A stretch of DNA of 41,559 bases from Actinomycetota bacterium (GCA_035759705.1 DASTUJ010000083.1:1-41559); one strand, 5' to 3'; shown: positions 5,994 through 23,718, counted from the stretch's first letter. The notes: generated by a model not told the origin, from the sequence alone. Numbers and translations are program-made.

Positions 5994-6111
5994 GCCTCTG
6001 AGGGGGCGGCTTGGGGGGCTCAGGGGCCTTTTCGTGCCATTGCCGGCAGGCAGCCTTCTCGAAGAATGCTTGGATAGGCACCGACAATGCCGGTGCACCG
6101 CCGGGTAGCCG

Positions 6112-7836
6112 ATGCGGGGATCTGAGAAGTTGGCCAAACGAACTTTGCGCAAGGTCCCCGGGCTGCGAAGGTGGTTTCCGGGCCTGGGCATGTTCTCGGA
6201 TTACCGGCCGCGCTGGCTGGCCAAAGACCTGGGTGCGGGGGCGGTCCTTGCGGCCCTGTTGGTCCCGGCCGGGATGGCCTACGCTGAGGCTTCCGGGTTG
6301 CCGGCAATCAACGGGCTCTACGCCACAATCGCCGCTCTGGTGGTCTACTCCATCTTCGGGCCTTCTCGGATCCTCATCCTGGGGCCGGATTCGTCGCTGG
6401 TTCCAATCGTCGCCGCGACGGTGATCCCACTGGCCGGCGGGGTCGACTCCCGGGCGGTGGCCCTTGCTGCGGCGCTGGCCGGCCTGGCGGGCCTTTTCTG
6501 CCTGATCGCCGGGGTGGCGCACCTGGGCTTTCTCACCGACCTGCTCTCCATGCCCATCCGGGTCGGCTACCTGAACGGGATCGCTCTGACGCTGTTCGTG
6601 GGCCAGTTGCCGAAGCTGTTCGGGTTCTCCGCGCCCGGCGAGAACCTGCCGGGCCAGCTGGCCGGATTTTTCGAAGGCGTGGGCGCCGGAGAGGTGAACA
6701 CCACAGCGCTGCTCCTGGGGCTTGCAGCTCTGGTCACGATACTGGCACCTCTGCGGCTGGCCCCCCGGTTCCCGGGAATCCTGGTGGCGGTTGCCGGAAC
6801 CACCGCCGCCGTGATCGTCTTCGACCTGGCCGAGACCGGCTTGTCCGTAGTCGGCAGGCTGCCGAGCGGGCTGCCGGCGCTGTCGTTTCCGTCGATCGGC
6901 ACCGGGGACCTGCCCACCCTGCTCGGCGCAGCCCTGGCGGTGGCGCTGATAACGATGGCCGACGCGAGCGTCCTCTCCAGGTCCCTGGCCGCCAGGGAGG
7001 GCCGGCACGTGGACGCCGACCAGGAGTTGGTCGCTGTCGGCTCGGCGAATCTTTTCAGCGGCCTGTTTGCCGGGATGCCGGTGAGCGCCAGCAACACCCG
7101 AACCCCGGTAGCCGAGGCGGCTGGAGCGAAGAGCCCCCTGGCCGGCCTGGCCGGTGCCCTGCTCGTGGCGGCAATGCTGCTTTTTGTTCCCAACGCACTA
7201 GGCAGCCTGCCGTCGGTGGCTCTGGCTGCGGTGGTTATCTCGGCCTCTTTCAGGCTGGTCGACATCAAGACCGTTGCAACCCTGGCGAGGACCCGGCGAA
7301 GCGAGCTGGCAATCTGCCTGGTGACCACCGTCGGGGTGGCGGTGCTGGGGGCGATCTCAGGAATTGGCCTCGCTCTGGCACTGGCCGTTCTCAGCTTTCT
7401 ATGGAGAGGCTGGCGCCCTCACAGCGCGGAACTGGTCCACGTCGGCGGGCTGGAGGGTTACCACGATTACGACCGGCACCCCGAAGGGCAGCGAATCCCG
7501 GGGCTGGTCCTTTTCCGGTTCGACGCACCGCTGTTCTTCGCGAACGCCGACCTGTTCCGCAGGCAGGTGCTCGATCTGGTCGACGAGGTCGCTGCAGCGG
7601 ATTGGGTGGTGGTGACGGCGGAGCCCATCACAGACGTCGACTCGACGGCGGCGGTCATGCTGGAGGAGCTCTTCCTGGAGCTTCAGGACCGGGGCGCCTC
7701 GCTGCGATTCGCCGAGCTCAAGGGGACGGTCAGGGACGGTCTCGACCGGTTCGGGCTGGTCGAGAAGATCGGACCGGACCGGTTCTACCGCACAATCGAA
7801 CAGGCGGTCGAAGCCTTCCAGAACGAAGCTACCTGA
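6112..7836 (+). CDS. SulP-family anion transporter with STAS domain
   Basis: 574 residues in the SLC26/SulP layout. About 11-14 membrane segments span residues 38-430, starting with the family segment that contains VPAGMAYAEASGLPAINGLY (about 48-67); a C-terminal cytoplasmic STAS domain covers about 460-565. The substrate (sulfate, bicarbonate or another anion) cannot be read from sequence. The length is normal. The ATG at 6112 has no strong Shine-Dalgarno. It is transcribed away from the GAF/phosphatase gene and ends with an 8-nt tail-to-tail overlap with the EEP-family gene. No carbonic anhydrase or sulfur-assimilation gene sits next to it. Confidence 0.9.
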   Translation: MRGSEKLAKRTLRKVPGLRRWFPGLGMFSDYRPRWLAKDLGAGAVLAALLVPAGMAYAEASGLPAINGLYATIAALVVYSIFGPSRILILGPDSSLVPIVAATVIPLAGGVDSRAVALAAALAGLAGLFCLIAGVAHLGFLTDLLSMPIRVGYLNGIALTLFVGQLPKLFGFSAPGENLPGQLAGFFEGVGAGEVNTTALLLGLAALVTILAPLRLAPRFPGILVAVAGTTAAVIVFDLAETGLSVVGRLPSGLPALSFPSIGTGDLPTLLGAALAVALITMADASVLSRSLAAREGRHVDADQELVAVGSANLFSGLFAGMPVSASNTRTPVAEAAGAKSPLAGLAGALLVAAMLLFVPNALGSLPSVALAAVVISASFRLVDIKTVATLARTRRSELAICLVTTVGVAVLGAISGIGLALALAVLSFLWRGWRPHSAELVHVGGLEGYHDYDRHPEGQRIPGLVLFRFDAPLFFANADLFRRQVLDLVDEVAAADWVVVTAEPITDVDSTAAVMLEELFLELQDRGASLRFAELKGTVRDGLDRFGLVEKIGPDRFYRTIEQAVEAFQNEAT

Positions 7837-8791
7837 TGTGGAACTCGGCCCAGAGCGGGTAGTGGTCGGAAATCCTCCAGCTCAGCGCCGCCCTGGTCAG
7901 GTTCGTCATGACGTACTTGGCGAAGTCGAAGTAGCCGGCGTTCTTGCGGTAGCTGAGCGACAGAGCCGGGGCGCCCGATTCGCCGGTGAACCAGGCAATC
8001 TGGTCGTAGAAGTTCTTCTGGGAGTTCCCGAAGATCGTCCGGGGGACCAGGTTCAGCTCGCTCGGCGTCCGAAGTCCCGTGGAGGTGAAGGCCTGGTAGA
8101 GCGGGTCGCCGTTGCGGTCGATGTTGAAGTCGCCCAGGACGATCAGGTTCTGGTGCCAGGAGTTAAGGTCTTTCGCCCACTTCGCCATGTACTCGGCGAT
8201 CCCGGTCAGCTCCGGCACCCGTTCGGTGGCGTGCTTGCCGAACAAGACGTGGAGGGTGACGAGGATGAAGGTCTGATTGCCCGACAGGAAGCTCACGGCG
8301 TAGGGCGTCCGGGCGAACTGGTCCTCGAGCGCGTCCTTGGACTGCCGGTCGAGCCATTCCCGGGGCACCACCAGCTCGGCGGCCAGGCCCGAGGGCTTGG
8401 CCCGCCGGGTGTCGAAGACGAACGCCAGGCGCTCGTCGTTGCCCCTGGCGCCCTCGGTCACGTCGGTGAGGATGAGGCCCCAGTCCGGACCAAGGATGTC
8501 GAGCATGTGCCGGAGCGACCTGAGGTTGCCTTTGGTCTCCTGTATCGCGACCACGTCGAATCGCCGCACGATGGCGGCAATGCAGTTGAGGGAGAACAGG
8601 TCCCGTTTGGGGCTGTCGCTCTCCTCCGATCGCCACTTGTCGACCAGTCCGCCGAAAGCCCGGATGTTCCAGGTGCAGATCAGCAGGTTCTCGTCCAGGC
8701 GCTTGGGCGGAACGTCCCGGTCCAGAGCCTGAATCAGGACGTCGAGCTCGGGCTGGAACTCGGCGGGCAGCGGGTCGGTGGCGCTCGGCAT
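7829..8791 (-). CDS. Endonuclease/exonuclease/phosphatase-family hydrolase
   Basis: 320 residues from ATG 8791; the longer frame from 8869 adds 26 residues that are not family-like. DNase I-like EEP motifs are in order: a CTWNIRAFG strand near residue 40, VVAIQETKGN (metal-binding Glu) near 80, GDFNIDRNGDP (Asp/Asn pair) near 220 and a C-terminal SDHYPLW with the catalytic His. All key residues are present, so it should be an active metal-dependent phosphodiesterase. No signal peptide is seen, so it is probably cytoplasmic. The substrate (DNA, RNA, lipid or nucleotide) is not determinable. It is divergent from the metalloprotease gene at 8887. Confidence 0.85.
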   Translation of the reverse strand: MPSATDPLPAEFQPELDVLIQALDRDVPPKRLDENLLICTWNIRAFGGLVDKWRSEESDSPKRDLFSLNCIAAIVRRFDVVAIQETKGNLRSLRHMLDILGPDWGLILTDVTEGARGNDERLAFVFDTRRAKPSGLAAELVVPREWLDRQSKDALEDQFARTPYAVSFLSGNQTFILVTLHVLFGKHATERVPELTGIAEYMAKWAKDLNSWHQNLIVLGDFNIDRNGDPLYQAFTSTGLRTPSELNLVPRTIFGNSQKNFYDQIAWFTGESGAPALSLSYRKNAGYFDFAKYVMTNLTRAALSWRISDHYPLWAEFHIR

Positions 8792-8886
8792 CGCCTCAAA
8801 GTCTAGAAGTCTTTCGTTAAGCCGGCACCACTTGTTGCCGATGTAAAGAATTGACAACCAGATTTCCAACGAGCGGGGAAAAGTCC

Positions 8887-10032
8887 ATGAACGGAAACGT
8901 CAAGGGCGCGCTCATTGCCGCCGGCGTGACGGTCGCGGCACTGGCGACCCTCTTTGCGCTCGGCGCGCTCCTCGGCCCGGAGGGCGGTCGCCGTGAGCCC
9001 GAACCGGTTCCTGCCGTATGGGCGCCCGTCGTCGACGAGCTGGTGAAGTTCGTGGAGAACGAGAGGGGCCTGAAGTTCAAGGATGAGGTTTCGATGGTCT
9101 TCCAGACCGAAGAGGAGTTCCTCGAGGAGATCGAGGGGGACTCCGAGGACTATTACCAGCCGGACGCGGCCGACTCGTACATCGCCCTGAAGGCGCTGAA
9201 CCTCGTCGACGGCGAGCTGGACCTCGAGACCATGGAGGACCCGCTACAGGGCGGCGGCCTGGCGGGCTTCTACGACTCGATCACCGAAGAGCTGGTCGTG
9301 CAGGGCACCGACCCGACGCCGTTCGTGCGGATGGTCCTGGTCCACGAGCTCACCCACGCCCTTCAGGACCAGCACTTCGACCTGGACCAGGTGCCGGCGG
9401 ACACCGAGGAGTCCTACACCGCTTACGCCTCGCTGGTGGAGGGCGACGCCACCCGCATCGAAAACGCCTACTACGAGTCGTTGAGCCCGGAGGACCAGGC
9501 GCTGGTCGAATCCGAGAACCAGAGCCCCTTTGCCGGGACCGAGGACCCGTCGATCCAGACTCTCGCCATGCTTTCCGGCTTCCCGTACGAGGTTGGCTCG
9601 CTGTTCGTCGACGAAATCCTGAGCTCAGGCGGGCAGGCCCGGGTGGACCAGGCCTTCAAGTCGCCCCCGACCACCACCGAGCAGGTGCTGCACACCGACA
9701 GGTTCTTGAGAAGAGAGGACCCGGCGAAGGTCGATTCGCCCAAGGCGGAGGCCGAGGTCATCGAAGAGGGCATATGGGGCGAGAGAGGCCTGTTGACCAT
9801 GCTCCTGCAGACAATCGACCGGGACCAGGCTCTGCAGGCCGCCGAGGGGTGGAACGGCGACTACTACGTTGCCTGGAAGAGGGGAGGGACGGACTGCATC
9901 CGGATGAGCATCGCTACCGACACCGCCAAGGACAAGGCGGAGTTGTTCGAAGCCCTGACCGCATGGTCGTTCACCCAGCCGACCGCCTCCGTGACGAACG
10001 GCAAGACGATCCTGATCCGGGCCTGCGCCTGA
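8887..10032 (+). CDS. Membrane-anchored HExxH metalloprotease-like protein
   Basis: 381 residues from ATG 8887 (a purine-rich GCGGGGAAAAG precedes it). An N-terminal helix at about 8-28 anchors the protein; the remainder is acidic and extracytoplasmic. HELTH within a VLVHELTHALQDQHFD stretch (about residue 154) is a zinc-binding site, and a downstream EGDA segment about 35 residues on offers a third Glu ligand, as in gluzincins. This matches a family of actinobacterial hypothetical proteins with a peptidase-like core. No propeptide is obvious. The substrate is unknown. It stands alone, ending 2 bp before the end of the convergent crcB gene. Confidence 0.75.
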   Translation: MNGNVKGALIAAGVTVAALATLFALGALLGPEGGRREPEPVPAVWAPVVDELVKFVENERGLKFKDEVSMVFQTEEEFLEEIEGDSEDYYQPDAADSYIALKALNLVDGELDLETMEDPLQGGGLAGFYDSITEELVVQGTDPTPFVRMVLVHELTHALQDQHFDLDQVPADTEESYTAYASLVEGDATRIENAYYESLSPEDQALVESENQSPFAGTEDPSIQTLAMLSGFPYEVGSLFVDEILSSGGQARVDQAFKSPPTTTEQVLHTDRFLRREDPAKVDSPKAEAEVIEEGIWGERGLLTMLLQTIDRDQALQAAEGWNGDYYVAWKRGGTDCIRMSIATDTAKDKAELFEALTAWSFTQPTASVTNGKTILIRACA

Positions 10033-10033
10033 G

Positions 10034-10408
10034 CTAGAGGCTTCCCAGCCAAAAGCCGGCTGCTGCAGCCATCAGGCCGGCCAGCAACGTTCCCAGGGCG
10101 TTCAGCGCTGCCTGCAGGGCAAGGCCGTCCTCGGCGAGCTCTACGGTCTGGACGGCCAGCGTGCTGAAGGTGGTGTAAGCCCCGCAGAAGCCGGTCCCGG
10201 CGATGGCCATAGGCACGCCGCCCAGGTGTGAAGTCTCGTTTAGCCCGGCGAGGATGCCCAGCAGAAAGCTCCCGGACACATTCACCACCCAGATTCCCCA
10301 GGGGAACGTCTGAGCGAAGCGAGCCTGAGCCCAGCCGTCGACCAGGTAGCGAACGACGGCCCCCAGGGAGCACGCTGCCACAAACGCGACCCAGGCAGAG
10401 CCGCTCAC
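10034..10408 (-). CDS. crcB: CrcB/Fluc fluoride channel subunit (second)
   Basis: 124 residues with four membrane helices. Family signatures are NVSGSFLLGI (about 42-51) and GAYTTFST (about 76-83), the Fluc pore motifs. Fluc channels export fluoride as antiparallel dimers; genomes with two adjacent genes usually make a heterodimer. The GTG at 10408 is chosen because GTGA overlaps the TGA of the upstream crcB by 4 nt, giving translational coupling; the longer frame to 10750 is a shadow of that gene. No fluoride riboswitch is recognised upstream of the pair. Confidence 0.9.
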   Translation of the reverse strand: MSGSAWVAFVAACSLGAVVRYLVDGWAQARFAQTFPWGIWVVNVSGSFLLGILAGLNETSHLGGVPMAIAGTGFCGAYTTFSTLAVQTVELAEDGLALQAALNALGTLLAGLMAAAAGFWLGSL

Positions 10409-10845
10409 GGTAGACGGCTCGCCGGCCACAACCTCCGGCCGAGCACGAGGCCGGCCCAGGCCGCACCCAAACCGGTAACCAGGCTGGCCGCCGCATACAG
10501 GATTGCGGTAGATCCGTACCCGTGGCCGGTCAGGAGGTCGATTTCGACCACGAGGGTAGAGAACGTGGTGTAGGCGCCGAGCACGCCCGTGGCGAGGAAG
10601 GGGCGCACCCACCGGTTCTCGGGGAAACGCCGGACCGTCAGGACAACGACCAGCCCCAGCAGCAGGCTCCCCGAGACGTTCGTCCAGAACGTCGCCCAGG
10701 GAAAGCCGTTCGCCGCCGGGGGGAGGACCCGCGCGAAGACGTAACGGCACAGGCCCCCCAGCGCCCCGCCGGCCGCTATCGCCGCGAGGAGCGCCGGGCT
10801 GCGGTCGGGGGCGGGGTGAAAGTAGGTCATGCGGTCAAGCCGCAT
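10405..10845 (-). CDS. crcB: CrcB/Fluc fluoride channel subunit (first)
   Basis: 146 residues, four helices, with NVSGSLLLGL and GAYTTFST motifs. It is the first gene of the crcB pair and overlaps the second by 4 nt, so the two subunits are probably made in equal amounts and pair as a heterodimeric fluoride channel in the cytoplasmic membrane. ATG 10845 gives a short basic leader; ATG 10830 is an equally good start and neither has a strong Shine-Dalgarno. Compared with the partner it carries a longer cytosolic N-terminus, which is common in the first member of such pairs. Confidence 0.9.
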   Translation of the reverse strand: MRLDRMTYFHPAPDRSPALLAAIAAGGALGGLCRYVFARVLPPAANGFPWATFWTNVSGSLLLGLVVVLTVRRFPENRWVRPFLATGVLGAYTTFSTLVVEIDLLTGHGYGSTAILYAAASLVTGLGAAWAGLVLGRRLWPASRLP

Positions 10846-10911
10846 TATCGACCCTGTAGCGATCCCACAACCCGTTGCGCCGCCGCGGTCGACAGTCCGA
10901 GGTCCCTTGAG

Positions 10912-11370
10912 TCAGGCGACCTGCTGCTGGCGCTGCGCCGCCCGCTGCAGCACCTTGAGGGCCAGGCAGGGCACGGTATCGAGCAGGTCCAGGAACTCCC
11001 GCGCACCGATGACGGCAACCTCGCTGCTTCCCGTTGCGACCAGCGACTCGGGGTAGGGGAGCCGGCGCAGAGCCTGCATCTCTCCGAACATCTCGCCCTT
11101 GCCGGCGTAACCGGTTTCGGCGCCGTCCCGCTCGATCCGCAGCCTTCCTTTGCTGACAATGACCACCTGGTCGGCGTAGGCGCCCTGCCGGATGACCTCG
11201 GTCCCCGCCTCGACCTGGACGAAATCCACGAGACGGGCGATGGTCGCCAGCATCTTGCGGGAGCAGCCGTCGAAAATCGCGAGGGCGGCCATGCGCTCGA
11301 TCTTCTCGTCGGTCCGGTGACGGAGGGTTAGTAGTCCTTCGTTCCACTCTCTGCTGATTGTCCAGTCCAT
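10912..11370 (-). CDS. Lone cyclic-nucleotide-binding-domain protein
   Basis: 152 residues from ATG 11370. One cNMP-binding beta-roll (about 30-140) of the CRP/EPAC type is present, with a GEMFGEM phosphate-binding-cassette-like segment near residue 92. There is no helix-turn-helix, channel or enzyme domain, so it is a free-standing sensor rather than a CRP transcription factor. The cassette lacks the usual Arg that follows GE, so cyclic nucleotide binding is uncertain. The longer frame from 11490 covers the intergenic region and is not family-like. It is divergent from the MocR-like gene and 66 bp upstream of the crcB pair. Confidence 0.75.
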   Translation of the reverse strand: MDWTISREWNEGLLTLRHRTDEKIERMAALAIFDGCSRKMLATIARLVDFVQVEAGTEVIRQGAYADQVVIVSKGRLRIERDGAETGYAGKGEMFGEMQALRRLPYPESLVATGSSEVAVIGAREFLDLLDTVPCLALKVLQRAAQRQQQVA

Positions 11371-11476
11371 TTTGCATACCAATCTGGTTCGGGGCAGGCA
11401 CATTGGCCTCTTGACAGACCACTCTAGGAAAGATTGGACTTGACTTACATAGCCAATTGGAGGAAAGTGGCCTGAA
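11371..11476. promoter_or_regulatory. Divergent control region with repeated ATTGG/CCAAT motifs
   Basis: Between the divergent cNMP-binding gene and the MocR-like regulator, the pentamer ATTGG or its complement appears at 11379-11383, 11402-11406, 11433-11437 and as CCAATTGG at 11453-11460. A TTGACA lies at 11411-11416, with no good -10 at normal spacing. MocR-type regulators often bind direct repeats next to their own gene, so this is a candidate autoregulatory operator (inference). Confidence 0.4.
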
Positions 11477-12946
11477 ATGATTACCGCCACCGACCGCCGG
11501 CTGCTGCAGATACTCGGCGACTGGATGCAAAACGATGGGCCGCTCTACTCGCGCCTCACACGGGCGTTCGTTTCGGCCATCGAGCAGTCCGACCTGCCCC
11601 CGGGCACCAAGTTGCCGGCAGAACGATCCCTCGCCGACCTGTTGAGTGTCAGCAGGGCCACGGTAACCCAGGCGTACGAGTCGCTCCGGGACGCCGGCTG
11701 GGTGCAGAGCAGGCAGGGGAGCGGAACCTGGGTCGGCTCCCCGTCGCAGGCCGGGCGCCCGACCCCCGCCGGCCCGCGGCCGCTGTCGGCCGGCACGTTT
11801 TTCAACCGAATGATGGACACCAGCTCGCAGCCGCCCATCAACATGTCTATGGCCGCACTCTCCGGCGCCGACGAGATCTTCGCCGAGGGCAACTCCATCC
11901 AGCTATCGGACCTTCTCGGTGTCCCGAGCCACGGTTACGCCCCTCTCGGCTTCCAGCCGCTGCGCCGGGGGATCGCCGCGCTCTACACCAACGCCGGGGT
12001 TCCCACGCTGCCCGAGGAGATACTGGTAACGACCGGCGCCCAGCAGGCCATCTCCCTTCTTGCATGCCATTACATCCAGCGTGGAGACGCGGTGATCGTC
12101 GAATCGCCGACCTACTCCGGTGCCATCGACGCCTTCTCCCGGGCCGGCGGCCGCCTGATCCCGGTGCCGGTGGGCGTCGACGGTGTACGCCTGGACCTGC
12201 TGGCCGAGGCGCTGGCGACGGCCCGGCCCCGGCTGGTCTACCTGATGCCGACCTTCCAGAACCCGACCGGCGCAGTCATGCCAGAGGATGCCCGCAAGGA
12301 GGTCGCCCGCCTGGCCGACCAGTACCAGGTCCCCTTCGCCGAGGACAACACGCTGTCCGATCTCACGTTCGGCACCAAGCCCCCGCCGCCTCTGGCGCAC
12401 TACGCTAGGGGCGGCACGATTGTCAGCGTCGGCTCGATGAGCAAGCTCTACTGGGCGGGGATCCGCATCGGCTGGGTGAGGGGGCCGGAGTCGCTCATCA
12501 CCCGGCTGGGCCAGCACAAGGTGGCGGCGGACCTGGGTTCGTCGATGGTCTCCCAGGTGGTTGCCTGCCGGCTGCTGCCGAACCACGAGGCGGTCAAGGC
12601 ACGCAGGGCGGAGATGTTGCGGTCACGGCTCGACCTTCTGACCAAGCTCCTGCACGAACGAATTCCCGAGTGGCGGTGGCAGCGTCCGGAGGGCGGGCTG
12701 TCGCTGTGGGTGCGAATTACCAGCGGCGACGCCAATGCCTTCGCCGAGCAGGCTTTGCGGCACGGAGTCGCCATCACCCCGGGGAGCGACCTTGCCCCCG
12801 ACGACGCATTCCAGGACCACATGCGCCTCAACTACGTTGTTGAGGAGGCCTTGATAGAGGCGGCGGTCGATCGTCTGGCCGCCGCCTGGAAGGCCCACCG
12901 GGCCTCCGGCGGCCCCCAGCGGGAAGCGGTTGAAGTAAAAGTTTGA
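11477..12946 (+). CDS. MocR/PdxR-like GntR-aminotransferase regulator
   Basis: 489 residues. The N-terminal GntR winged helix-turn-helix is at about 15-85 (LPAERSLADLLSVSRATV within it); after a linker, a class-I aminotransferase-like domain runs to the end, with NPTG (about 260) and the PLP-lysine segment SMSKLYWAGIRIGW (about 320). This is the MocR architecture: a PLP-sensing transcription factor, often controlling vitamin B6, amino acid or transporter genes. The target is not evident, since the neighbours are a cNMP-binding protein (divergent) and a DUF4258/DUF2283 pair. A GGAGG lies 13 nt before the ATG, longer than usual. Confidence 0.9.
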   Translation: MITATDRRLLQILGDWMQNDGPLYSRLTRAFVSAIEQSDLPPGTKLPAERSLADLLSVSRATVTQAYESLRDAGWVQSRQGSGTWVGSPSQAGRPTPAGPRPLSAGTFFNRMMDTSSQPPINMSMAALSGADEIFAEGNSIQLSDLLGVPSHGYAPLGFQPLRRGIAALYTNAGVPTLPEEILVTTGAQQAISLLACHYIQRGDAVIVESPTYSGAIDAFSRAGGRLIPVPVGVDGVRLDLLAEALATARPRLVYLMPTFQNPTGAVMPEDARKEVARLADQYQVPFAEDNTLSDLTFGTKPPPPLAHYARGGTIVSVGSMSKLYWAGIRIGWVRGPESLITRLGQHKVAADLGSSMVSQVVACRLLPNHEAVKARRAEMLRSRLDLLTKLLHERIPEWRWQRPEGGLSLWVRITSGDANAFAEQALRHGVAITPGSDLAPDDAFQDHMRLNYVVEEALIEAAVDRLAAAWKAHRASGGPQREAVEVKV

Positions 12947-12972: not shown

Positions 12973-13194
12973 TTGAAACTCTCCCACCACGCAATCCTGA
13001 GGATGGCGCAGCGCGAGATCTCCCCCCAGGAGGTCGAGCAGGCGCTGGCCAACGTCGTGTCCAGCGATCCGGGCGACCGGCCCAGCCGGGTGGTAAAGGT
13101 CGGGACCACGGAGGAGGGCAAGCGCCTGCGGATCACCCAGAACAACTTCGGGCAGGAGCACGTCATCACCGTGATCCGGGTGGAGAAGAGCTAG
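12973..13194 (+). CDS. DUF4258-like small protein
   Basis: 73 residues from TTG 12973. It begins with a SHHAILRMAQREIS-type segment, the His-x3-Arg-Met-x2-Arg signature of DUF4258 (RelE/BrnT-like fold), followed by beta strands ending in ITVIRVEK. Such proteins often sit beside a DUF2283 or antitoxin-like partner, and the next gene overlaps by one base and is DUF2283-like. A toxin-antitoxin role is possible but unproven. It is the first gene of the run leading into murJ; no Shine-Dalgarno is clear. Confidence 0.75.
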   Translation: MKLSHHAILRMAQREISPQEVEQALANVVSSDPGDRPSRVVKVGTTEEGKRLRITQNNFGQEHVITVIRVEKS

Positions 13195-13472
13195 TGCGGG
13201 TTCTGTACGACGGCGCCGTCGATGCTCTCTACCTGCCGTTCCGGCGGGGGGCCCGGGTCGACCGGTCGGTCGTGGTCGACATCAAGCGGATCGTCGACCT
13301 GGACGAGCGGGGAAACCCGGTCGGCATCGAGATCATGGGTGCTTCGCACGGCGTCCAGCTCTCCGACCTGGTGGAGGAGTACGGCCTGCAGGGCTGGGCC
13401 CCCGACTTCCCCGCCATCGAATCGTTTCAATTCACTGCTGAGGAGGGCGCCGAGGCGGCTGTAGACCCGTGA
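13194..13472 (+). CDS. DUF2283-domain protein
   Basis: 92 residues from GTG 13194, which overlaps the previous stop (TAGTG). The DUF2283 pattern is clear: LYDGAVDALYLPF at the start, a VVVDI strand, and DERGNPVGIEIMGAS around residues 41-55. The C-terminal tail is acidic. The pair with DUF4258 recurs in many bacteria, and the tail may bind the basic partner. Its stop overlaps the start of murJ (TGATG), so the pair is translationally joined to a cell-wall operon, which is unusual. Confidence 0.75.
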   Translation: MRVLYDGAVDALYLPFRRGARVDRSVVVDIKRIVDLDERGNPVGIEIMGASHGVQLSDLVEEYGLQGWAPDFPAIESFQFTAEEGAEAAVDP

Positions 13473-15055
13473 TGCCGGCGGCCCGCACCACGCGGGCGGC
13501 CACCGGCATGGCGGGAATCGTTGCGATCTCCCGGGCGGCCGGGTTCGTCCGGGTGCTGGTCGTCGCAGCGGTTCTGGGAACCAGCTATCTGGGCAACGCC
13601 TTTCAAGCAGCAAACTCTTTCTCCAACGTCCTCTTCGAGCTCATCGCAGCGGGCGCACTCTCCTCGGTTCTCGTCCCGACCTTCGTCCGGCTGCTCGACG
13701 CGGGCGACCAGAAGGGCGCGGAGGAGGTTGCGGGCGGGGTCCTCGGCTTCGCGGTCCTGGTCCTGGGCGCGGTCTCTCTGGCGGGGGTTCTGGCCGCTCC
13801 GCTTCTTGCCCGCCTCCTGACGGTGGGCGTCCCCGCCTCGGTCGTGGCCGACCAGCGGGAGCTGATCACCCATCTGCTCCGGTTCTTCGTCCCGCAGGTG
13901 GTGCTCTACTCCGCAGGGACCATTGCCATTGCGGTGCTGCAGGCCCGGCGGCGGTTTGCCGTGACGGTTGCGGCGCCCATCGGCAACACCCTGGTGATGG
14001 TCGCCTGCCTGCTCGCCTTCGGCGCCTCGGTCTCCGGCACGCCGACCTTCGACCTCACCGGCTCGCAGCGCTGGCTCCTGGTCGTTGCCGGTACCGGAGG
14101 GGTGCTGGCGTTCGTACTCCCGCTGCTGATCGCCACCCGGGCGTCCGGTTTTCGCCTGTACCCGCGGTTCGCCTTTTCCGACTCCCGGGTCCGGGAGCTA
14201 CTGAGGCACTCGGGCTGGGGCGTCGTTCTCCACAGCGCCGCCGGGCTGCTGCTGGGGGCGGCGATAGTCGCAGGCTCGGGCGTCGAGGGAGCCGTCGTCG
14301 CCTACCAGGTGGGGTGGGTGTTCTTCCTGGCGCCCTTCGCAATCTTCGCCCAGCCGGTCCAGACCGCGGTCCTTCCGGAGCTGGTGGCCGAAGTCGAAGG
14401 AGGCGACCTGGCACGGTTTCGGACGACCATGCGGTGGTCCCTCGAGCGGACGGCGCTGTTCGTCCTGCCGGTTTCCGCGGCGATGATGGCTCTGGCCCTG
14501 CCCGGGATGCGTGCGGTTTCCTTCGGCGAGGCCGGGGGGAACGGCCCCGGGCTGCTCGCCGCGGCGGTCGCCTCCCTGGCGGTTGGCCTTTATCCCTACG
14601 GCGCTTTTCTTCTCCTGGCCCGGGCCTACTACGCCCTGGGCGACAGCAGGACGCCCGGCTTTGCCGCCTTGTGGGTTTCGGCCGCCGGCGTGGTCGTGAT
14701 GCTGGCAGGGGGGCTGCTGACCGACGGGCCCGCCCGGGTCGCGGTTCTGGGGGCCGGCCACTCCTTCGCATATCTGCTGGGCTGCTTCCTCCTGCTCCGG
14801 GGGCTGGGCCGGCGCGCCGGTGGGTCGGTTGTGCCAACACGGGTCGGGACGATGGTGCTGGTGTCGGCGGCGGTGGGGGTCGTTGTGTGGCTGGGGAGCG
14901 GGATTGCGCTCGAAGGTCCGGGAGGCCGCCTGCGGGATATCGCCGTCCTGACGGTGGCCGGGGTGGTCGGGGGAGCGCTGGTATTCGCCGGGTACCGGGT
15001 CGCCGGGTTGCCGGGGGCCCTCACCCAGCGCACGCCTGTGGGCGACACGCCGTGA
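13472..15055 (+). CDS. murJ: Lipid II flippase MurJ (MviN family)
   Basis: 527 residues, about 14 membrane segments. The N-terminus shows the family pattern: a SRAAGFVRVLVVAAVLG helix near 20, then GNAFQAANSFSNVLFEL and GALSSVLVPTF with the conserved pore residues. MurJ moves undecaprenyl-linked peptidoglycan precursor, or related glycolipids in paralogues, to the outer face. ATG 13472 overlaps the preceding stop by one base; GTG 13469 is an alternative giving a 4-nt overlap. It lacks the long cytoplasmic pseudokinase tail of mycobacterial MurJ. The next gene starts at GTGA over its stop. Confidence 0.92.
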   Translation: MPAARTTRAATGMAGIVAISRAAGFVRVLVVAAVLGTSYLGNAFQAANSFSNVLFELIAAGALSSVLVPTFVRLLDAGDQKGAEEVAGGVLGFAVLVLGAVSLAGVLAAPLLARLLTVGVPASVVADQRELITHLLRFFVPQVVLYSAGTIAIAVLQARRRFAVTVAAPIGNTLVMVACLLAFGASVSGTPTFDLTGSQRWLLVVAGTGGVLAFVLPLLIATRASGFRLYPRFAFSDSRVRELLRHSGWGVVLHSAAGLLLGAAIVAGSGVEGAVVAYQVGWVFFLAPFAIFAQPVQTAVLPELVAEVEGGDLARFRTTMRWSLERTALFVLPVSAAMMALALPGMRAVSFGEAGGNGPGLLAAAVASLAVGLYPYGAFLLLARAYYALGDSRTPGFAALWVSAAGVVVMLAGGLLTDGPARVAVLGAGHSFAYLLGCFLLLRGLGRRAGGSVVPTRVGTMVLVSAAVGVVVWLGSGIALEGPGGRLRDIAVLTVAGVVGGALVFAGYRVAGLPGALTQRTPVGDTP

Positions 15056-17289
15056 AGTTCCTTCCACTCCGCAGGCTGCTGGCCCTGGCTGCCGCCGCAG
15101 GCCTGCTGGCCGGCTGCGGCGCCCAGGAGGAGCCCCCTGCCGAACCCGTCGAGCGGGTGCTGATCGTCTCCCTGCCGGGAGTTCGCTGGGCCGACGTGCT
15201 GGAGCACGACCTTCCCAACCTCGAGGCGTTCGTCGAAACAGCCGCCATCGGCGACCTGTCGACCCGCATCGGCCGGCGACCCGCCTCCACCACCGACGCC
15301 TACCTGTCGATCGGCGCCGGCACCCGGGCCCTGGCCCCCGACGTGGACATCGCGGTCGCGGTCGACCCGGACGAGCTCTACGGAGGGGTCCGGACCGACG
15401 ACATCCTCCAGCGGAGGCTGGGCCGGGTCCCTAGGGGGGTCGCCTACCTGGCGGTTGGGGCGGCGATAGAGCGCAACGAGGAGTCCCTGTTCGGCGCCAA
15501 ACCCGGGCGGCTGGGCGACCTGCTGAGCGACGCCGGCATCCACCGGGCGGTGATCGCCAACGCCGACGCAGCCGAGGGCTTCGTGAGCGACGAACCCCCG
15601 CCCGACGGCGCCTACGCCCGCGGCGCCGCTACCGCTTTGATGGGTTCGGACGGGATTGTCCCCGGCGGAACGGTGGGCCGGGGGTTGCTGCAGGAGGACC
15701 CGATGGCGCCTTTCGGCCGGAAGCTGGACCAGGAGGCGGTGCTGAAGGCTTTCGATGCCGAGTGGCAGGGCAACCGTCCCGCAGTGGTGCTGGTGGAGGC
15801 GTCGGACCTCAGCCGGGCCGCTGCCTACGGCGGGCGGGCGACCCCGGAACAGCAACAGGCCCTGAGGGAGCGAGCCCTGGCCGACTCGGACGACCTCCTG
15901 GCCGAGCTGGTCGGCCGGACCGACCCGGAGCGGGATGCCGTGCTGGTGGTGTCGCCCGTGGCCGCCACCTCCACGCCCGAGCTGGCAATCGCCGCCATGC
16001 GCGCCCCCGGCCGGGAGAAGGGACTGCTGCGTTCATCCACCACCAGGCGGGACGGCTACGTGCAGCTTGCCGACGTGGGCCCCACGGTGCTGGACCTCGT
16101 GGGGCTGGAGCAGCCGGAGGAGATCGAGGGCAGGGCATTCGATGTCGGCAGCGCGGACCGCTCGGGCCGGGTGGAGCGGCTGGTCAGGGCCGCCGAGGAC
16201 GCCGCCTTCCGGGATGCCCTGATGTACAAGGTGGTCCCGGCGTACTTCGGGGTGCAGATCCTGTTGCTCGTGGGCCTGGCCTTCGCCCGCCGCTTTCCCG
16301 AGCGGGTAGGGCGCTTGCTGAAGCCGGCGGCGCTTGCCTCTCTTTCGGTCATTCCCGGCACCTATCTCGTAAGCCGGTTGGGCATTGTCAGGCTCAACAC
16401 CTGGGGGTACTTCGCGGCGGTGATCACGGTGGCCGCAGTGCTTGGTGCTGTCGGCGTGGCGATCGACCGGCGCCACCCGGGCCTCGGCGCCATTGCGGTC
16501 CTACTGGCCATCGCCGGTATGTTCACATTCGACGTGATCTTCGGCGCGCCGCTCCAGCTCAACTCGGTCTTCGGCTACTCGGTCACTGTGGCCGGGCGCT
16601 TCTCCGGGCTGGGGAACCTCGCTTTTGCCCTGTTCGGGGCAATAGCGGTCCTGCTGGCCGCGCTTCTGGTGGAGCGATACGGGCCCGCCGGACTCAGGCC
16701 GGCGATGATCCTTCTTTTGATCGTGGTCCTGGTTGAGGGCCTTCCGATGCTGGGCGCCGACGTCGGCGGCGTGCTGTCGATGGTCCCCGCCTTCGGAGTA
16801 ACCGTGCTGCTCCTCGCCGGGCGGCGCCCACGCTGGACCCACTACGCCGCTCTGGGGGCCGCCGCCGTTGGATCCGTCCTGCTGTTTGCCTTTCTCGATG
16901 CCGCCCGGCCCGAGGGGTCGCGCACCCACCTGGCCCGGGTGGCCCAGCACGTGCTCGACGGCCGCTGGGGGCTGTTCTTCGACAGCCTCGGCCGGCGGCT
17001 TCAGGCCAGCTTCGGAAGCGCCCGGGTCGCCGCGTGGGCGGTTCTGGCGATCCTGGCCGTGGGCGCCGGGGTGTACGCCATCCTGGTCGTCCGCGGGGTT
17101 GCAGGGCCCGGCGCGACCCGCAGGGACCGGGACTCCTGGCAGGTGGCGGCGGTGACCGGCGTGGCGGTCCTGGCGGTCATAGGCCTGGTGGCGAACGACT
17201 CGTCGGTGGCCGTGCCCGCAGCGATGGTCCCGGTCCTGGTGCCGATCTTCGTCCTCAGGCGGGCGCAGGCGCTCCCGGAGCCTTTGTGA
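15052..17289 (+). CDS. Lipoprotein with degenerate alkaline-phosphatase-superfamily ectodomain and polytopic membrane domain
   Basis: 745 residues from GTG 15052 (GTGA overlap with murJ). Lipobox LLAGC puts the lipidated Cys at residue 22. Residues 35-370 follow an alkaline-phosphatase/phosphodiesterase fold: RVLIVSLPG where active members have a metal-binding Asp, a Thr/Ser-rich STTDAYLSIGAG near 79-90 at the nucleophile site, VVLVEASD near 245, DAVLVVSPVAA near 295 where active enzymes have a metal-binding Asp-His, and LADVGPTVLDLVGL near 340. From about 395 there are 10-11 membrane helices with a conserved FGYS/GRFSGLGN loop and GADVGGVLS. Loss of metal ligands suggests a non-catalytic binding domain. 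It is a paralogue of the gene at 18134. Confidence 0.75.
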   Translation: MKFLPLRRLLALAAAAGLLAGCGAQEEPPAEPVERVLIVSLPGVRWADVLEHDLPNLEAFVETAAIGDLSTRIGRRPASTTDAYLSIGAGTRALAPDVDIAVAVDPDELYGGVRTDDILQRRLGRVPRGVAYLAVGAAIERNEESLFGAKPGRLGDLLSDAGIHRAVIANADAAEGFVSDEPPPDGAYARGAATALMGSDGIVPGGTVGRGLLQEDPMAPFGRKLDQEAVLKAFDAEWQGNRPAVVLVEASDLSRAAAYGGRATPEQQQALRERALADSDDLLAELVGRTDPERDAVLVVSPVAATSTPELAIAAMRAPGREKGLLRSSTTRRDGYVQLADVGPTVLDLVGLEQPEEIEGRAFDVGSADRSGRVERLVRAAEDAAFRDALMYKVVPAYFGVQILLLVGLAFARRFPERVGRLLKPAALASLSVIPGTYLVSRLGIVRLNTWGYFAAVITVAAVLGAVGVAIDRRHPGLGAIAVLLAIAGMFTFDVIFGAPLQLNSVFGYSVTVAGRFSGLGNLAFALFGAIAVLLAALLVERYGPAGLRPAMILLLIVVLVEGLPMLGADVGGVLSMVPAFGVTVLLLAGRRPRWTHYAALGAAAVGSVLLFAFLDAARPEGSRTHLARVAQHVLDGRWGLFFDSLGRRLQASFGSARVAAWAVLAILAVGAGVYAILVVRGVAGPGATRRDRDSWQVAAVTGVAVLAVIGLVANDSSVAVPAAMVPVLVPIFVLRRAQALPEPL

Positions 17290-18137
17290 GCTTCGCCCTG
17301 GCTCTGGTAGGCGGCGCTCTGGCGGCGTGGGCCCTGCTGGCCGCATCCGGCGCGCTGATCGCCCACCCGGTACTGCAGCGCAGGAACTACCGGGATTTCG
17401 AGCTCCCGACTGCGATTGGGCTGCTGCTGGTCGCGGCGGTGCTGGCGGTCGAGGGCGTGCGCACCATGGCCGGGCTGGCCGGGCTGGAGAGTGGCCGGAT
17501 AGCGCCCGAGCGCCTGGCGGTGGCGGCCGCCGTGGTGGTGTTCGGCTTTCTCGGCCTTTTGGACGACCTTTTGGGCGACGGAGCCGACCGGGGCCTGCGG
17601 GGCCACATCAAAGCTGCGCTGCACGGGAGGGTCACGACAGGCTTCATCAAGCTCGGCGGGGGAGCGGCGGCGGCTCTGGTGATCGCCGCAGCGGTCGACG
17701 GCGACCGGCCGGTCCGGGTGATTGTCGACGCGGCACTCATCGCCCTGGCGGCGAACATCGGCAACCTGCTCGACCGGGCTCCCGGAAGGACGCTGAAGTG
17801 GGGGCTTTTGGCCTACGTGCCCCTGGCGCTGGCCGCCGGATTCTCGGAACCCGGCCCGGCGCTGGCCGTTGTCGCGGGCGCCTCGGCAGTCCTGCTGGCG
17901 GGCGACCTGCGGGAACGGTTCATGCTGGGTGACACCGGGGCGAACGCCCTCGGCGCGGCGCTCGGGGTCGGGCTCGTCCTGGTCGTGGGATTTCAGGGCC
18001 GGGTGATCGCGGCGGCGGTCCTTCTTGCCCTCACACTGCTTTCGGAGGTGGTCTCGTTCAGCCGGATCATCGAAGGGTTCCCGCCCCTGCGGGCTCTCGA
18101 CCGCCTCGGCCGCCTGCCCAGGGACCGGGCAGCTTGA
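17286..18137 (+). CDS. MraY/WecA-superfamily polyprenyl-phosphate sugar-phosphate transferase, divergent
   Basis: 283 residues from GTG 17286 (GTGA overlap), with about 9-10 membrane segments. FLGLLDDLLGD (about 92-102) supplies the DDxxG acidic pair, NIGNLLDRAPGRT (about 158-170) stands in for the NxxNxxDGxxGL loop, and MLGDTGANALG (about 215-225) is the GDTGS-type loop. These are landmarks of enzymes that move a sugar-1-phosphate from a nucleotide sugar to polyprenyl phosphate. It is shorter than MraY or WecA, and the usual His-rich final loop is missing. The donor sugar is unknown. It lies between two paralogous phosphatase-like membrane proteins. The longer open frame from 17034 is a shadow. 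Confidence 0.8.
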   Translation: MSFALALVGGALAAWALLAASGALIAHPVLQRRNYRDFELPTAIGLLLVAAVLAVEGVRTMAGLAGLESGRIAPERLAVAAAVVVFGFLGLLDDLLGDGADRGLRGHIKAALHGRVTTGFIKLGGGAAAALVIAAAVDGDRPVRVIVDAALIALAANIGNLLDRAPGRTLKWGLLAYVPLALAAGFSEPGPALAVVAGASAVLLAGDLRERFMLGDTGANALGAALGVGLVLVVGFQGRVIAAAVLLALTLLSEVVSFSRIIEGFPPLRALDRLGRLPRDRAA

Positions 18138-20389
18138 GAGCCCGCGCGACCGCCCTGATCGCCGCTCTGACGATCCTTCTCGCTGCGGCCCCCGCAGTCG
18201 CACAAAGTGACACCCGTGTGCCGGGCCGAATGCTGATCGTCTCGGTGCCCGGCCTTACCTGGGCCGACGTCGCAGCCCACGACCTCCCGGAGCTCGAGAG
18301 GTTCTTCGACCAGGCGGCCCTGGCCGACCTGGCCCCCAGGGGAGTGTCGCCCCGCTCCGGCCCCGGCGACGCCTACCTGACGATCTCGGCCGGCGCCCGG
18401 GCAACCACCCGGCCGGCGGTCGACGGCCAGGTGCTGGCGCTCAACGAGCAGAGCTCGGGCTCGATGGCGGGTGAGATCTTCGCCCGGCGGACCGGCTCGA
18501 TCGCCGCCGGCGACTTCGTGGCCCTGGGCTGGCCGGCGCTGCTCCGGGCGAACGAAGCCGAACCGTACGACGCAGTTCCCGGCCTGCTGGCGGAGACCCT
18601 GCGGGACGAAGGGATCGGGGTGAGCGTAATCGGCAACGCCGACGGAACCGACTCGGTCGGCTCCTCCTACGAACGACAGGTCGGCCTGGCGCTCACCGGC
18701 ACCGACGGCGTGGTCCAGGGGGGCGCGCTCCGCCGCGAGCTGCTCGCCGACGACCCGGCTGCGGTCTTCGGGGTCCGGCTGGACGAGGCGATGGTTCTCC
18801 AGAGGTTCGACGAGGCGTGGGGGACCGACCGGTCGCAGGACTCCGTGGTGATGGTCGAGGCGTCGGACCTCGCCCGCACCCTCCGCTACTGGCCGATGGT
18901 GGGAAGCGACCGCTTTTCGACGCTGTGGGCGGACTCCCTCGCCGGGGCCGACAAGCTGTTCGGGCAGCTCATGGACCGGGTCGACCCGGACTTCGACACG
19001 GTGCTCGTCGTAGCCCCCTACAACCGGTTCGAATCCCGCGACCTCACAGCGGTGGCTATGCGATCGCCGGGGTCGGAGAGCGGGTACCTGGAGTCGGCTT
19101 CCACCCAGCGCGAGGGCTTCCTGACGCTGGTCGACATCGCACCGACGGTGCTCAGCACCTTCGACATCGACCGTCCCGTTGCCATGGAGGGCCGCCCGGC
19201 GGAGGTTGCGGAGTCCTCAACCTCGCTCTCCGGCCGGATCCACCGGCTGGTCTCCCTGAACGACGCCTCCCGGTTCCGGGAGCGGCTCCTGGTGCCCACC
19301 ACGGTGGTGATCGTGTTGATCCTCGCCTTCGTGCTGGCCGGGACCGTGGTCGCCATCTCCGGCCAAAAGGATGCCCGCTGGCGGCGGGCCCTGCGGTTCA
19401 TGGCGTTGGTCGACCTCGCCGTGTTCCCGATGTCCTACGCCGCCCGGGCCTTCGACCTGGAGGATCTGGGGGCGGGCTTCTACTGGGGGTTCGTCACGGT
19501 CACCGCCCTGGCGCTGGCCTCTGCGGCAACTGCCCTTGCCCGCCGATCGGGCACCCTGCGGACCGGGCTGGTCGTCATCCTCTGCCTGGTGGCCGGTGTG
19601 CTGGTCTTCGACGTCGTCACCGGCTCCCGCCTCAGCCTCAGCGCCGCATTCGGGTACTCGCCGACCGGCAACTCCCGGCTCTACGGCATCAGCAACTACT
19701 CCTACGGCCAGCTGGCGACCGCAGTCTGCCTCCTGGCGGCGTTCCTGGCGGCCCGGGGGAACGGTCTGCGGGGCCGCGGCGCGGCGATCATCCTGCTCGT
19801 GGCGACGCTGGTGGTGCTCGGAGTCCCCATCTGGGGATCGGACGTCGGAGGAATCCTGGCGTTCACGCCGACGATCCTGCTCTTCGTGGCACTCGTGTTC
19901 ACCCGGAGGATCCGGCTGCGCACGGTGGTCGCAGGCGGCCTGGCGACCGTCGCGGCGGTCACCGCGTTCGGCCTTCTCGACCTGGCTCGGCCCCCGGAGC
20001 GCAGGGCGCACCTCGGACGGCTGTTCGAAAGGGTGGGGGACGAGGGCCTCGGCCCGCTCTTCTCGATCATGGAGCGCAAGCTCCTGGCGAACCTGCAGGT
20101 ATCGGTCTCCTCGTTCTGGGTGGCGGTGATCCCGATGGCGGTAGCGTTTTGGATCTTCATCGTCCGTTACCCCACACGGCCGCTGGACCGGGTAAGGGCG
20201 ACTCTGCCGACCCTGGGGGCCGGCGTAGCGGCGGCATTCGTCGCAGCGGTGCTGGGCAGCCTGGTCAACGACTCCGGAGCGATTGTGGGCGGCGTAGCGG
20301 CGGCGGTGCTGACTGCCTCCCTCGCTTACCTCGTCCTGGCGGAGCCGGCGCCCGTTGAAACGCCGGATCCCGAGGTGGCCGCGGCGTGA
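18134..20389 (+). CDS. Second degenerate phosphatase-like/polytopic membrane protein
   Basis: 751 residues from TTG 18134 (TTGA overlap). A cleavable signal peptide (about 1-23, ending APAVAQS) replaces the lipobox of its paralogue at 15052. The ectodomain keeps the same landmarks: MLIVSVPGLTW at 33-43, GDAYLTISAGARA at 78-90, VMVEASDL near 238, DTVLVVAPYNRF near 289 and TLVDIAPTVLS near 332; the metal-binding Asp and Asp-His of active alkaline-phosphatase-superfamily enzymes are absent. About 10 helices follow from residue 384, with FGYSPTGNSRLYGISNYSYG and GSDVGGILAFTPT matching the paralogue's loops. A heteromeric complex of the two is plausible. Function unknown. Confidence 0.75.
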   Translation: MRARATALIAALTILLAAAPAVAQSDTRVPGRMLIVSVPGLTWADVAAHDLPELERFFDQAALADLAPRGVSPRSGPGDAYLTISAGARATTRPAVDGQVLALNEQSSGSMAGEIFARRTGSIAAGDFVALGWPALLRANEAEPYDAVPGLLAETLRDEGIGVSVIGNADGTDSVGSSYERQVGLALTGTDGVVQGGALRRELLADDPAAVFGVRLDEAMVLQRFDEAWGTDRSQDSVVMVEASDLARTLRYWPMVGSDRFSTLWADSLAGADKLFGQLMDRVDPDFDTVLVVAPYNRFESRDLTAVAMRSPGSESGYLESASTQREGFLTLVDIAPTVLSTFDIDRPVAMEGRPAEVAESSTSLSGRIHRLVSLNDASRFRERLLVPTTVVIVLILAFVLAGTVVAISGQKDARWRRALRFMALVDLAVFPMSYAARAFDLEDLGAGFYWGFVTVTALALASAATALARRSGTLRTGLVVILCLVAGVLVFDVVTGSRLSLSAAFGYSPTGNSRLYGISNYSYGQLATAVCLLAAFLAARGNGLRGRGAAIILLVATLVVLGVPIWGSDVGGILAFTPTILLFVALVFTRRIRLRTVVAGGLATVAAVTAFGLLDLARPPERRAHLGRLFERVGDEGLGPLFSIMERKLLANLQVSVSSFWVAVIPMAVAFWIFIVRYPTRPLDRVRATLPTLGAGVAAAFVAAVLGSLVNDSGAIVGGVAAAVLTASLAYLVLAEPAPVETPDPEVAAA

Positions 20390-20856
20390 GCCCCAACCCC
20401 GCCGCCACGACCCCGCCCGGTCGAATCGTGCCGGGGAGTGCGCAGCGGAGGCTGGTGATGAGCGCACTGTTTCTGCTGCTGGTCCCCGGGATCATCGGGA
20501 TCGACTTTTGGCCGCTGACCGCCTGGCGCCTTTTCAGCCAGGCCCGTACAGACCTCCAGACGAACTGGGAGATCGACGCAGTGGACGCTCGAGGCCGGAC
20601 GGCCACCCTCGACCTCGACCGGCTCCCGTTCGGTTACCAGCTTGCCGAGTGGACGCTGGCGGAGCTGGAAACCAGCACCAACCCCAGAAGGAACGAGGTC
20701 TGCGCCGCCCTTCTCGAGGCGGCGGCAAAGGAGCGACCCGGCACCGTTTTGCTGAACATCGTGCGCAACGACCGGTGGTTGGTGCGACGGGACGGAAAGT
20801 GGGTATTCGAGTCCGACCGCCTGCTGTTCCACTCCTGCGGGAGCCCTAACAGATGA
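20386..20856 (+). CDS. Small membrane-anchored protein paired with the HTTM-like gene
   Basis: 156 residues from GTG 20386 (GTGA overlap). A Pro/Ala-rich cytoplasmic start is followed by one helix at about 25-45 and then a DFWPLTAWRLFSQART stretch (about 46-61) that begins the extracytoplasmic part. The rest is a compact alpha/beta-like domain ending in RLLFHSC. A similar 'WP-x3-WR-x-FS' start is common in small proteins encoded beside HTTM/DCC genes. The next gene begins at ATGA over its stop, so it is probably an accessory subunit. No enzyme motif seen. Confidence 0.65.
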   Translation: MSPNPAATTPPGRIVPGSAQRRLVMSALFLLLVPGIIGIDFWPLTAWRLFSQARTDLQTNWEIDAVDARGRTATLDLDRLPFGYQLAEWTLAELETSTNPRRNEVCAALLEAAAKERPGTVLLNIVRNDRWLVRRDGKWVFESDRLLFHSCGSPNR

Positions 20857-21728
20857 AGCAACGTTTCTGGCACTGGCTTGACCGCGCCCTGTGGGGGCCC
20901 GAGACCGCCGCCAGGCTGCTGTTCGTCCACACCGGGCTGGCGCTGCTGATAGGGACGCGGGTCGCCCTCGGCCCCTACCCCGAGCTGGCCGGCACCCCCG
21001 AAGCCCTGTTCGTCCCCGTGCCGATCCTCGCCTTTCTGCCCGGAATGCCGCCGCTGTGGCTCATCGTCGCCCTGCAGGTAGCCGGCGCGACCGCGGCCCT
21101 GGTTGCCGCGCTGCGCCGGTACCCCCGGGCCGCCTTCGGGCTGGCGTGGGGCTGCTACCTGGTGCTCGCCGGCCTGTTTGGAAGCAGGGGCAAAGTAATG
21201 CACAACGACCTGTTGCTGCTGTGGACCGCGGTGCCGTTCCTGCTGGCGCCGGTGGGCGTGCCCGGAGACGACCCGGAACCCCGCCGGGAGTACGGGTGGC
21301 CCGTCCGCTCCGCCGCCTTCATCGCTGCGGTTGTCTACGGGCTGGCGGGCTACCACAAAGTTCTGCGCTCCGGCCCCGCCTGGGCGTTCGGCGACAACCT
21401 GAGATACGTCCTGCTTTGGGGACCGGTTTACTGCCGGGTCCGCTGTGAGGAGGCGGCCCGCTGGGTGGCGGACCGGTGGTGGGCCTACAAGGGAGCCAGC
21501 GTCTTCAGCCTGCTGTTCGAGTTGACCTTCCCTCTCGTCCTGGTGTGGCGGAGGCTCCAGCCCTGGTACGCCGTGATCGCAGTGGGCCTGCACCTGTTGA
21601 CCTGGGTGTTTCTCGGGCTGGACTACTGGGCCTGGTCGGCAACCGCCATGCTGGTGTTCGTCGACTGGCCCGCGGTCCTTTCCAGGCTCCAAGGAGGCAG
21701 GAGGCTTCCTGCGGGGCAAAACGTATGA
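20853..21728 (+). CDS. HTTM-like polytopic membrane protein
   Basis: 291 residues with about 7-8 membrane segments. It resembles the HTTM domain (shared with vitamin-K-dependent gamma-carboxylase): a buried VMHNDLLLLW segment near 112, GLAGYHKVLRSGPAW near 165, an ELTFPLVLVW helix near 225 and a GLHLLTWVFLG helix near 248 with the conserved His. Bacterial HTTM proteins are mostly uncharacterised. It is the last gene of the murJ-centred run; a hairpin lies 9 bp after its stop. Its place suggests a modification step on the product of the operon (inference). Confidence 0.7.
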   Translation: MKQRFWHWLDRALWGPETAARLLFVHTGLALLIGTRVALGPYPELAGTPEALFVPVPILAFLPGMPPLWLIVALQVAGATAALVAALRRYPRAAFGLAWGCYLVLAGLFGSRGKVMHNDLLLLWTAVPFLLAPVGVPGDDPEPRREYGWPVRSAAFIAAVVYGLAGYHKVLRSGPAWAFGDNLRYVLLWGPVYCRVRCEEAARWVADRWWAYKGASVFSLLFELTFPLVLVWRRLQPWYAVIAVGLHLLTWVFLGLDYWAWSATAMLVFVDWPAVLSRLQGGRRLPAGQNV

Positions 21729-21736
21729 TCTCCAAC

Positions 21737-21754
21737 ACCCTTCTTGGAAAGGGT
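21737..21754 (+). terminator. Hairpin after the murJ-centred operon
   Basis: ACCCTT (21737-21742) pairs with AAGGGT (21749-21754) across a 6-nt loop, 9 bp after the last stop. No T-tract follows, so it is a weak terminator candidate. The rest of the gap to pyrG (to 21999) holds no gene; GCGTTAAGCCG occurs twice in it (21779 and 21967). Confidence 0.35.
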
Positions 21755-21972
21755 CAACGATACAAAGGTAGAGGCAGGGCGTTAAGCCGGAAGAAGCTTC
21801 AGTTCTGGGCTTCGATGCCGTGCTGCTGCACGGCAGACGGACTGACGAACCTGGCGGCGGCCCAAGACCTCATCCATCCCGACATGACGGGGACGCTGAC
21901 GGTCACCCAGGCGTAGCCCGTCCCAGGGCGCGAACAAATCTCGTTAACTTCCCATGAAACCGGGGGCGTTAA

Positions 21973-23718
<1,746 letters not shown>

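Follow-up and report, generated by a model that had tools for sequence, protein, structure and literature searches.

Why should a MurJ-family flippase, a transferase resembling MraY and WecA, and large membrane proteins with an alkaline phosphatase (AlkP)-like domain lie side by side between steAB and pyrG? The question is raised by contig C83 in a draft genome of 2.99 Mb (Actinomycetota bacterium, GCA_035759705.1 DASTUJ010000083.1), a stretch of 41,559 nucleotides (nt) that we refer to as the window. Eight codirectional genes occupy positions 12973-21728, and every junction overlaps. The genes encode, in order, a DUF4258 protein, a DUF2283 protein, the flippase (MurJ2), a pseudo-phosphatase-like membrane protein (PP1), the transferase-like protein (MraYL), a second such membrane protein (PP2), a small protein and an HTTM-like protein. 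The reading frames and the 1- or 4-nt overlaps given by an initial annotation, made from the sequence alone, were confirmed. In Corynebacterium and Mycobacterium, daughter cells separate under the control of SteAB, which governs the septal hydrolase RipA. The linkage of this cassette to steAB is our main point; it was missed by the initial annotation, as was the replacement of the cassette as a block within the genus. We propose that the locus may be a SteAB-coupled module that makes, flips and handles a lipid-linked saccharide, a proposal that we regard as evenly poised between right and wrong.

The linkage was followed through MraYL. An alignment of 11 MraYL sequences was used to scan 84,980 species genomes, and the best 80 loci were taken. 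Among these, SteB was present at 50 of the 56 Actinomycetota loci and at all 22 Bacillota loci; the misses mostly concerned short contigs. The Bacillota loci all carried a family 2 glycosyltransferase (GT2) in the arrangement steA-steB-GT2-MraYL, without MurJ and without pyrG, and this link was seen in Clostridia too. For a co-occurrence test, the same 119 genomes of the phylum were searched for MraYL (matches better than 1e-20) and for the SteB family PF11382 (matches above the cut-off). MraYL was found in 51 and SteB in 54; 49 genomes had both, 63 had neither, 2 had MraYL only and 5 had SteB only (Fisher p 5e-25, for genomes that are phylogenetically nonindependent). When both genes lay on one contig, they were on the same strand in 46/46 cases and within 10 kb of each other in 45/46, the sole more distant pair being that of the window (13.3 kb). 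Contigs labelled Bifidobacterium breve (L056, L058, L077) also held steAB-MraYL loci. These are probably mislabelled metagenome bins; Bifidobacterium is listed among the taxa without SteAB in PMC12977500.

PP1 relatives were present in 43 of the 61 related genomes searched, and the neighbourhoods of 20 of them were read. The commonest order in the class was steA-steB-MurJ2-GT4-PP-MraYL-pyrG-(nudix)-ald, in which the 1.3-kb gene separating MurJ2 from PP encodes a family 4 glycosyltransferase (GT4). Other lineages (L048, L050) displayed steA-steB-GT2-GT4-PP-MraYL-pyrG. The order varied by group (MurJ-GT4-PP-MraYL; MraYL-MurJ-GT4-PP; GT2-MraYL; inverted in L037 and L038 and partly inverted in G006 and G007), and the linkage stayed. 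In this class, the interval from steB to pyrG normally contains a murJ-like gene, PP and MraYL, and the neighbourhoods of the relatives led us to reject the earlier suggestion that the cassette interrupts the usual steB-pyrG order. The expectation that all six membrane genes would be neighbours in related genomes held for these three but not for PP2, the small protein and the HTTM-like protein, which are lineage specific. The last two were found only in the window and in the congener G002 and were rejected as core members of the cassette.

The conserved chromosomal region near pyrG could by itself keep unrelated housekeeping genes together, since pyrG, nudix and ald are likewise conserved neighbours. 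We consider this explanation improbable: Bacillota loci without pyrG still keep steA-steB-GT2-MraYL, order and orientation vary within Actinomycetota while the linkage persists, and MraYL and SteB nearly always occur together. As the murJ-like, PP and MraYL genes stay together throughout the class and outside it, we read them most readily as parts of one lipid-linked-sugar pathway. The dedicated pathway suggested by the initial annotation is supported in part, through these three conserved genes, but its pair of PP paralogues is not a general feature; nearly all relatives have a single PP, often with a GT4. The window is peculiar in its 9-kb insert between steB and murJ, its lack of a GT4, its second PP and its extra small and HTTM-like genes. 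A recent tandem duplication giving rise to PP1 and PP2 was unsupported: the two are not sisters in the PP tree, whose branches are long and which placed PP2 beside the G038 copy and PP1 with that of G005. Two further genomes of the class also had tandem PP pairs (L045 in G021 and L027 in G022), apparently duplicated independently of PP1/PP2.

The relationships of MraYL were examined by profile and motif. The window protein matched Glycos_transf_4 at 4e-4, under the cut-off, while 6 of the 11 MraYL family members reached PF00953 (best 3e-8). An hhalign comparison with WecA gave 6e-7, a better alignment than that with MraY, and a direct PDB sequence search with MraYL gave no match. The DD, N..NL.D and LGD motifs are kept as in WecA and MraY, and D98, D99, N164, N167, D170 and D222 are invariant in the MraYL alignment (A1); by these motifs, the active-site Asp and Asn residues of the PNPT (MraY/WecA) superfamily are retained. 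MraYL did not qualify as MraY proper (TIGR00445, 9.3 bits; no HHH), and its C terminus reads SFS..I...P.LR..DR.GR where MraY has HHH.

MurJ2 resembles canonical MurJ, the lipid II flippase, in that it meets the PF03023 family cut-off, displays a full-length MOP fold and matches MurJ structures in the PDB. It differs in scoring below the cut-off of the MurJ equivalog TIGR01695 (185 bits versus 235.55), in lying on a separate branch and in having a canonical counterpart elsewhere in the genome (C169; 273.6 bits versus 191 for the locus copy). Another, better-scoring MurJ was found elsewhere in nearly all cluster-bearing genomes examined. In a tree of 89 MurJ sequences, the locus copies were separate from 31 canonical copies, the sole stray being an opposite-strand gene outside the cluster (L117). 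Basal support was moderate (84), with the locus copies of class f3 near the root, beside canonical ones. Of the Arg residues that are essential in Escherichia coli MurJ, MurJ2 keeps the two N-terminal ones and is without those of the R52 and R270 type, which the genome's own canonical MurJ likewise lacks. On sequence grounds, the cassette's murJ is an ancient paralogue linked to this locus. A second murJ, which according to the initial annotation would have made the locus copy an unrelated paralogue, was indeed found, but the locus copy is no stray.

The homology to MurJ and MraY, together with the linkage to a cell-separation regulator, could also point to a second peptidoglycan route, in which MraYL would act as a variant lipid I synthase at the septum, with MurJ2 as a reserve flippase for lipid II. 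We give this explanation little credence, because canonical MurJ and MraY are both present elsewhere in the genome, MraYL is without the K and HHH motifs of MraY and aligns better with WecA, and the locus MurJs form a branch of their own.

For PP1, AlphaFold2 modelling (pLDDT 87.8, pTM 0.89) gave an AlkP-like ectodomain at approximately residues 33 to 360 and about 11 transmembrane (TM) helices at residues 373 to 740. Assignment of the N-terminal domain to the AlkP superfamily was obtained by profile (iPGM, 5e-5) and by Foldseek matches to LtaP (1e-6), LtaS and YejM, and both profile and fold support the earlier pseudo-phosphatase label. The AlkP metal ligands (DHG-type motif and metal His) were absent in all 27 PP members, in all sampled lineages. 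Sequence and model thus characterize PP as an AlkP-fold pseudo-enzyme, and an active phosphatase or LtaS-type transferase was rejected because the metal site is gone. The 11-TM domain modelled alone (pLDDT 87.4, pTM 0.88) gave no fold match in the PDB (best E 0.29) and no viral match. Its invariant residues are R516, G519, P565, G568, D616 and R648. A motif likeness to Wzy/WaaL, SEDS or GT-C proteins found no Pfam or Foldseek support. In one small-genome lineage (L052, L177, L178, L179, L180, L183), gidB-parA-parB is followed by a PP gene in the same direction, and several of these PP genes precede a YtxH gene and a D-Ala-D-Ala ligase.

PP resembles YejM/PbgA and LtaS/LtaP in having a membrane-anchored extracytoplasmic domain of AlkP fold, and YejM has also been described as a pseudo-hydrolase, although it is termed a metalloenzyme in the title of one paper (PMC7576196). 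Unlike in those proteins, the AlkP domain of PP is N terminal and devoid of metal ligands, and it is joined to 11 TM helices that hold invariant charged residues and match nothing in the PDB. A YejM/PbgA-like sensor module, in which the dead AlkP fold would detect a lipid and control the pathway instead of acting on a glycan, would agree with the resemblance in fold to LtaS/LtaP and to the periplasmic domain of YejM and with the loss of metal ligands across the 27 members. We nevertheless think it unlikely, since the most conserved PP residues (R516, D570, D616 and R648) are charged and lie in the 11-TM domain without a solved match, and no partner protease was found.

For the lipid-linked-sugar pathway, we infer the enzyme activities, the sugar, the order and direction of flux, the role of PP and the signal to SteA. 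MraYL would use a nucleotide sugar to place a sugar-1-phosphate on polyprenyl phosphate at the inner membrane face. A GT4 in actinobacteria or a GT2 in clostridia would probably extend the lipid-linked sugar in most relatives, and the locus-specific MurJ2 would flip it. PP, with its dead AlkP-like ectodomain and 11-TM domain, may then bind, polymerise, transfer or sense the exported product, and SteAB would couple its supply to septal wall cleavage. Given that MraYL is constantly paired with SteAB, which controls RipA, a component of the septal wall is probably what the pathway supplies or reports on. A PNPT-like transferase, a glycosyltransferase, a MOP-superfamily flippase and a large multi-TM protein are likewise combined in glycan loci of the Wzx/Wzy and teichoic-acid types. 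The present locus differs in its link to steAB, in using a paralogue from the MurJ family as its flippase and in a multi-TM protein whose fold is unmatched, and the window cassette shows no Wzy, ligase or LCP. The adjacent steA-steB pair is shared with the SteAB-RipA system of Corynebacterium and Mycobacterium. In the available text of the Mycobacteriales accounts (PMC12977500, PMC12338722), no discussion of lipid-sugar genes was found, whereas outside Mycobacteriales MraYL almost always accompanies steAB.

Several observations weigh against the proposed module. GT4 is absent from the window cassette and has no clear orthologue elsewhere in the genome; relocation was rejected, as only generic GT4s were found. 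Since MraYL is without HHH and the DGLDG loop and the window protein falls below the Pfam cut-off, catalysis is not assured. PP is also found away from the steAB locus, for example after gidB-parA-parB, and may therefore serve another purpose. In 5 of the 119 genomes (3 from family f27, with the highest MctB scores), SteB is kept and MraYL was not found; thus, SteAB does not require MraYL. Gene linkage by itself is no proof of a single pathway.

Comparison with congeners revealed that the cassette has been exchanged as a block. Nucleotide homology (blastn) to G003 through DUF2283 ended 14 nt before murJ and returned 76 nt before pyrG. Homology to G001 ended at 13453, so that for the two congeners the left edge lies at 13453-13455, 14 to 16 nt before murJ; homology to G002 was unbroken across the cassette. 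Between these edges, G003 carries its own MurJ2, PP and MraYL (33, 30 and 43% identical to those of the window), and the flanking SteA, SteB and PyrG are 88, 80 and 94% identical. Because congener homology ends just before murJ, the DUF4258-DUF2283 pair belongs to the left flank, outside the exchanged block. The evolutionary unit starts at murJ, and the six membrane genes from murJ to the HTTM-like gene were exchanged together, whereas the flanks on either side are 73 to 82% identical. A genome of another genus (G005) has a window-like MurJ2 (72%) and PP1 (65%), and the MurJ2 and PP of G003 group in trees with those of the same-order genomes G006 and G007. For five further genus pairs, cassette and flanks had diverged together (63 to 90%); exchange as a general habit was therefore rejected in favour of an event of this lineage. 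If alternative versions were exchanged laterally, this would suit a surface-glycan locus, without proving one. The alternative cassette of G003 (L034) contains a GT4-like gene at approximately 6182-7381 (PP-oriented frame), apparently on the opposite strand and divergent from murJ.

The features of the window are collected in Table 1. The successive overlaps from the DUF4258 gene to the HTTM-like gene are 1, 4, 4, 4, 4, 4 and 4 nt; MurJ2 starts with GTG at 13469, with an alternative ATG at 13472. PP1, PP2 and the small protein matched no Pfam family, and the HTTM-like protein missed the PF05090 cut-off (16.3 bits versus 27.7). The cassette genes are under purifying selection: dN/dS against G002 was 0.10 for MurJ2, 0.14 for PP1, 0.13 for MraYL, 0.16 for PP2 and 0.20 for the HTTM-like gene, the small protein (0.39) giving the sole value above 0.20. 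A consensus scan gave no promoter and a terminator count that did not exceed that of shuffles, and an Rfam search of the window gave no match. Upstream of the cassette lie steA and steB, and downstream pyrG-nudix-ald. The stretch from steB to the cassette contains an insert, lineage specific and several kilobases long (4027-11476), that is partly shared with congeners (comparison with G002 and G003) and carries a SulP sulfate permease with a STAS domain (6112-7836) and a DUF6782-like putative metallopeptidase (8851-10032). It adjoins a GntR-aminotransferase regulator (11477-12946). A gene with both DUF3048 domains lies downstream of ald (26973-27983).

Table 1. Features of the steA-pyrG region in the window
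Feature	Position	Strand	Evidence
SteA, cell-separation regulator	1849-3138	+	Pfam: TPK_catalytic + SteA-like_C
SteB/MctB family, SteA partner	3145-4026	+	PF11382 1e-45
DUF4258 gene	12973-13194	+	Pfam 5e-8
DUF2283 gene	13194-13472	+	Pfam 5e-10
Block exchanged whole in congeners	13455-21924	.	blastn; G003 both edges, G001 left edge
MurJ2, MOP-family flippase, steAB-locus MurJ paralogue	13469-15055	+	PF03023 4e-56
PP1, pseudo-AlkP ectodomain + ~11 TM helices	15052-17289	+	AlphaFold2 model; profile to iPGM 5e-5
MraYL, polyprenyl-phosphate sugar-1-phosphate transferase-like, N..NLLDRAPGR subfamily	17286-18137	+	PF00953 in family members; hhalign WecA
PP2, second PP paralogue, ~37% identical to PP1, this lineage only	18134-20389	+	
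Small protein, one N-terminal hydrophobic segment, fast-evolving, lineage specific	20386-20856	+	No Pfam family
HTTM-like membrane protein, lineage specific	20853-21728	+	PF05090 0.008, under cut-off
pyrG, right flank of cassette	22000-23718	+	Pfam CTP_synth_N 4e-126

According to the accessible text of a January 2026 study (PMC12977500), SteA of Corynebacterium glutamicum binds, and is stabilised by, uridine diphosphate (UDP) or guanosine diphosphate (GDP), and its pocket is predicted to be carbohydrate binding, with the ligand left open. SteA is proposed there as a sensor of wall status, and SteAB is described from Actinobacteria and, after spo0A, from Clostridia. No mention of a transferase or MurJ linked to SteAB was found in that text or in the open-library literature, an absence that is no proof of novelty. 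As the published work leaves the ligand open, the MraYL linkage is directly testable. A more far-reaching version, which we put forward tentatively and think unlikely, is that the SteA pocket reads the substrate (UDP-sugar) or by-product (uridine monophosphate) of MraYL, with the lipid-linked sugar licensing septal hydrolysis by SteB-RipA; PP would then be a new family of glycan-handling enzymes with catalytic residues in the unmatched 11-TM fold, and lineages would be able to exchange the locus as a whole. Two uncharacterised families are defined here, namely the transferases with N..NLLDRAPGR and the PP proteins, the latter with a TM domain without a solved-fold match. Seen in two phyla, the near-obligate link between SteAB and MraYL points to a candidate pathway and a candidate class of ligand for SteA.

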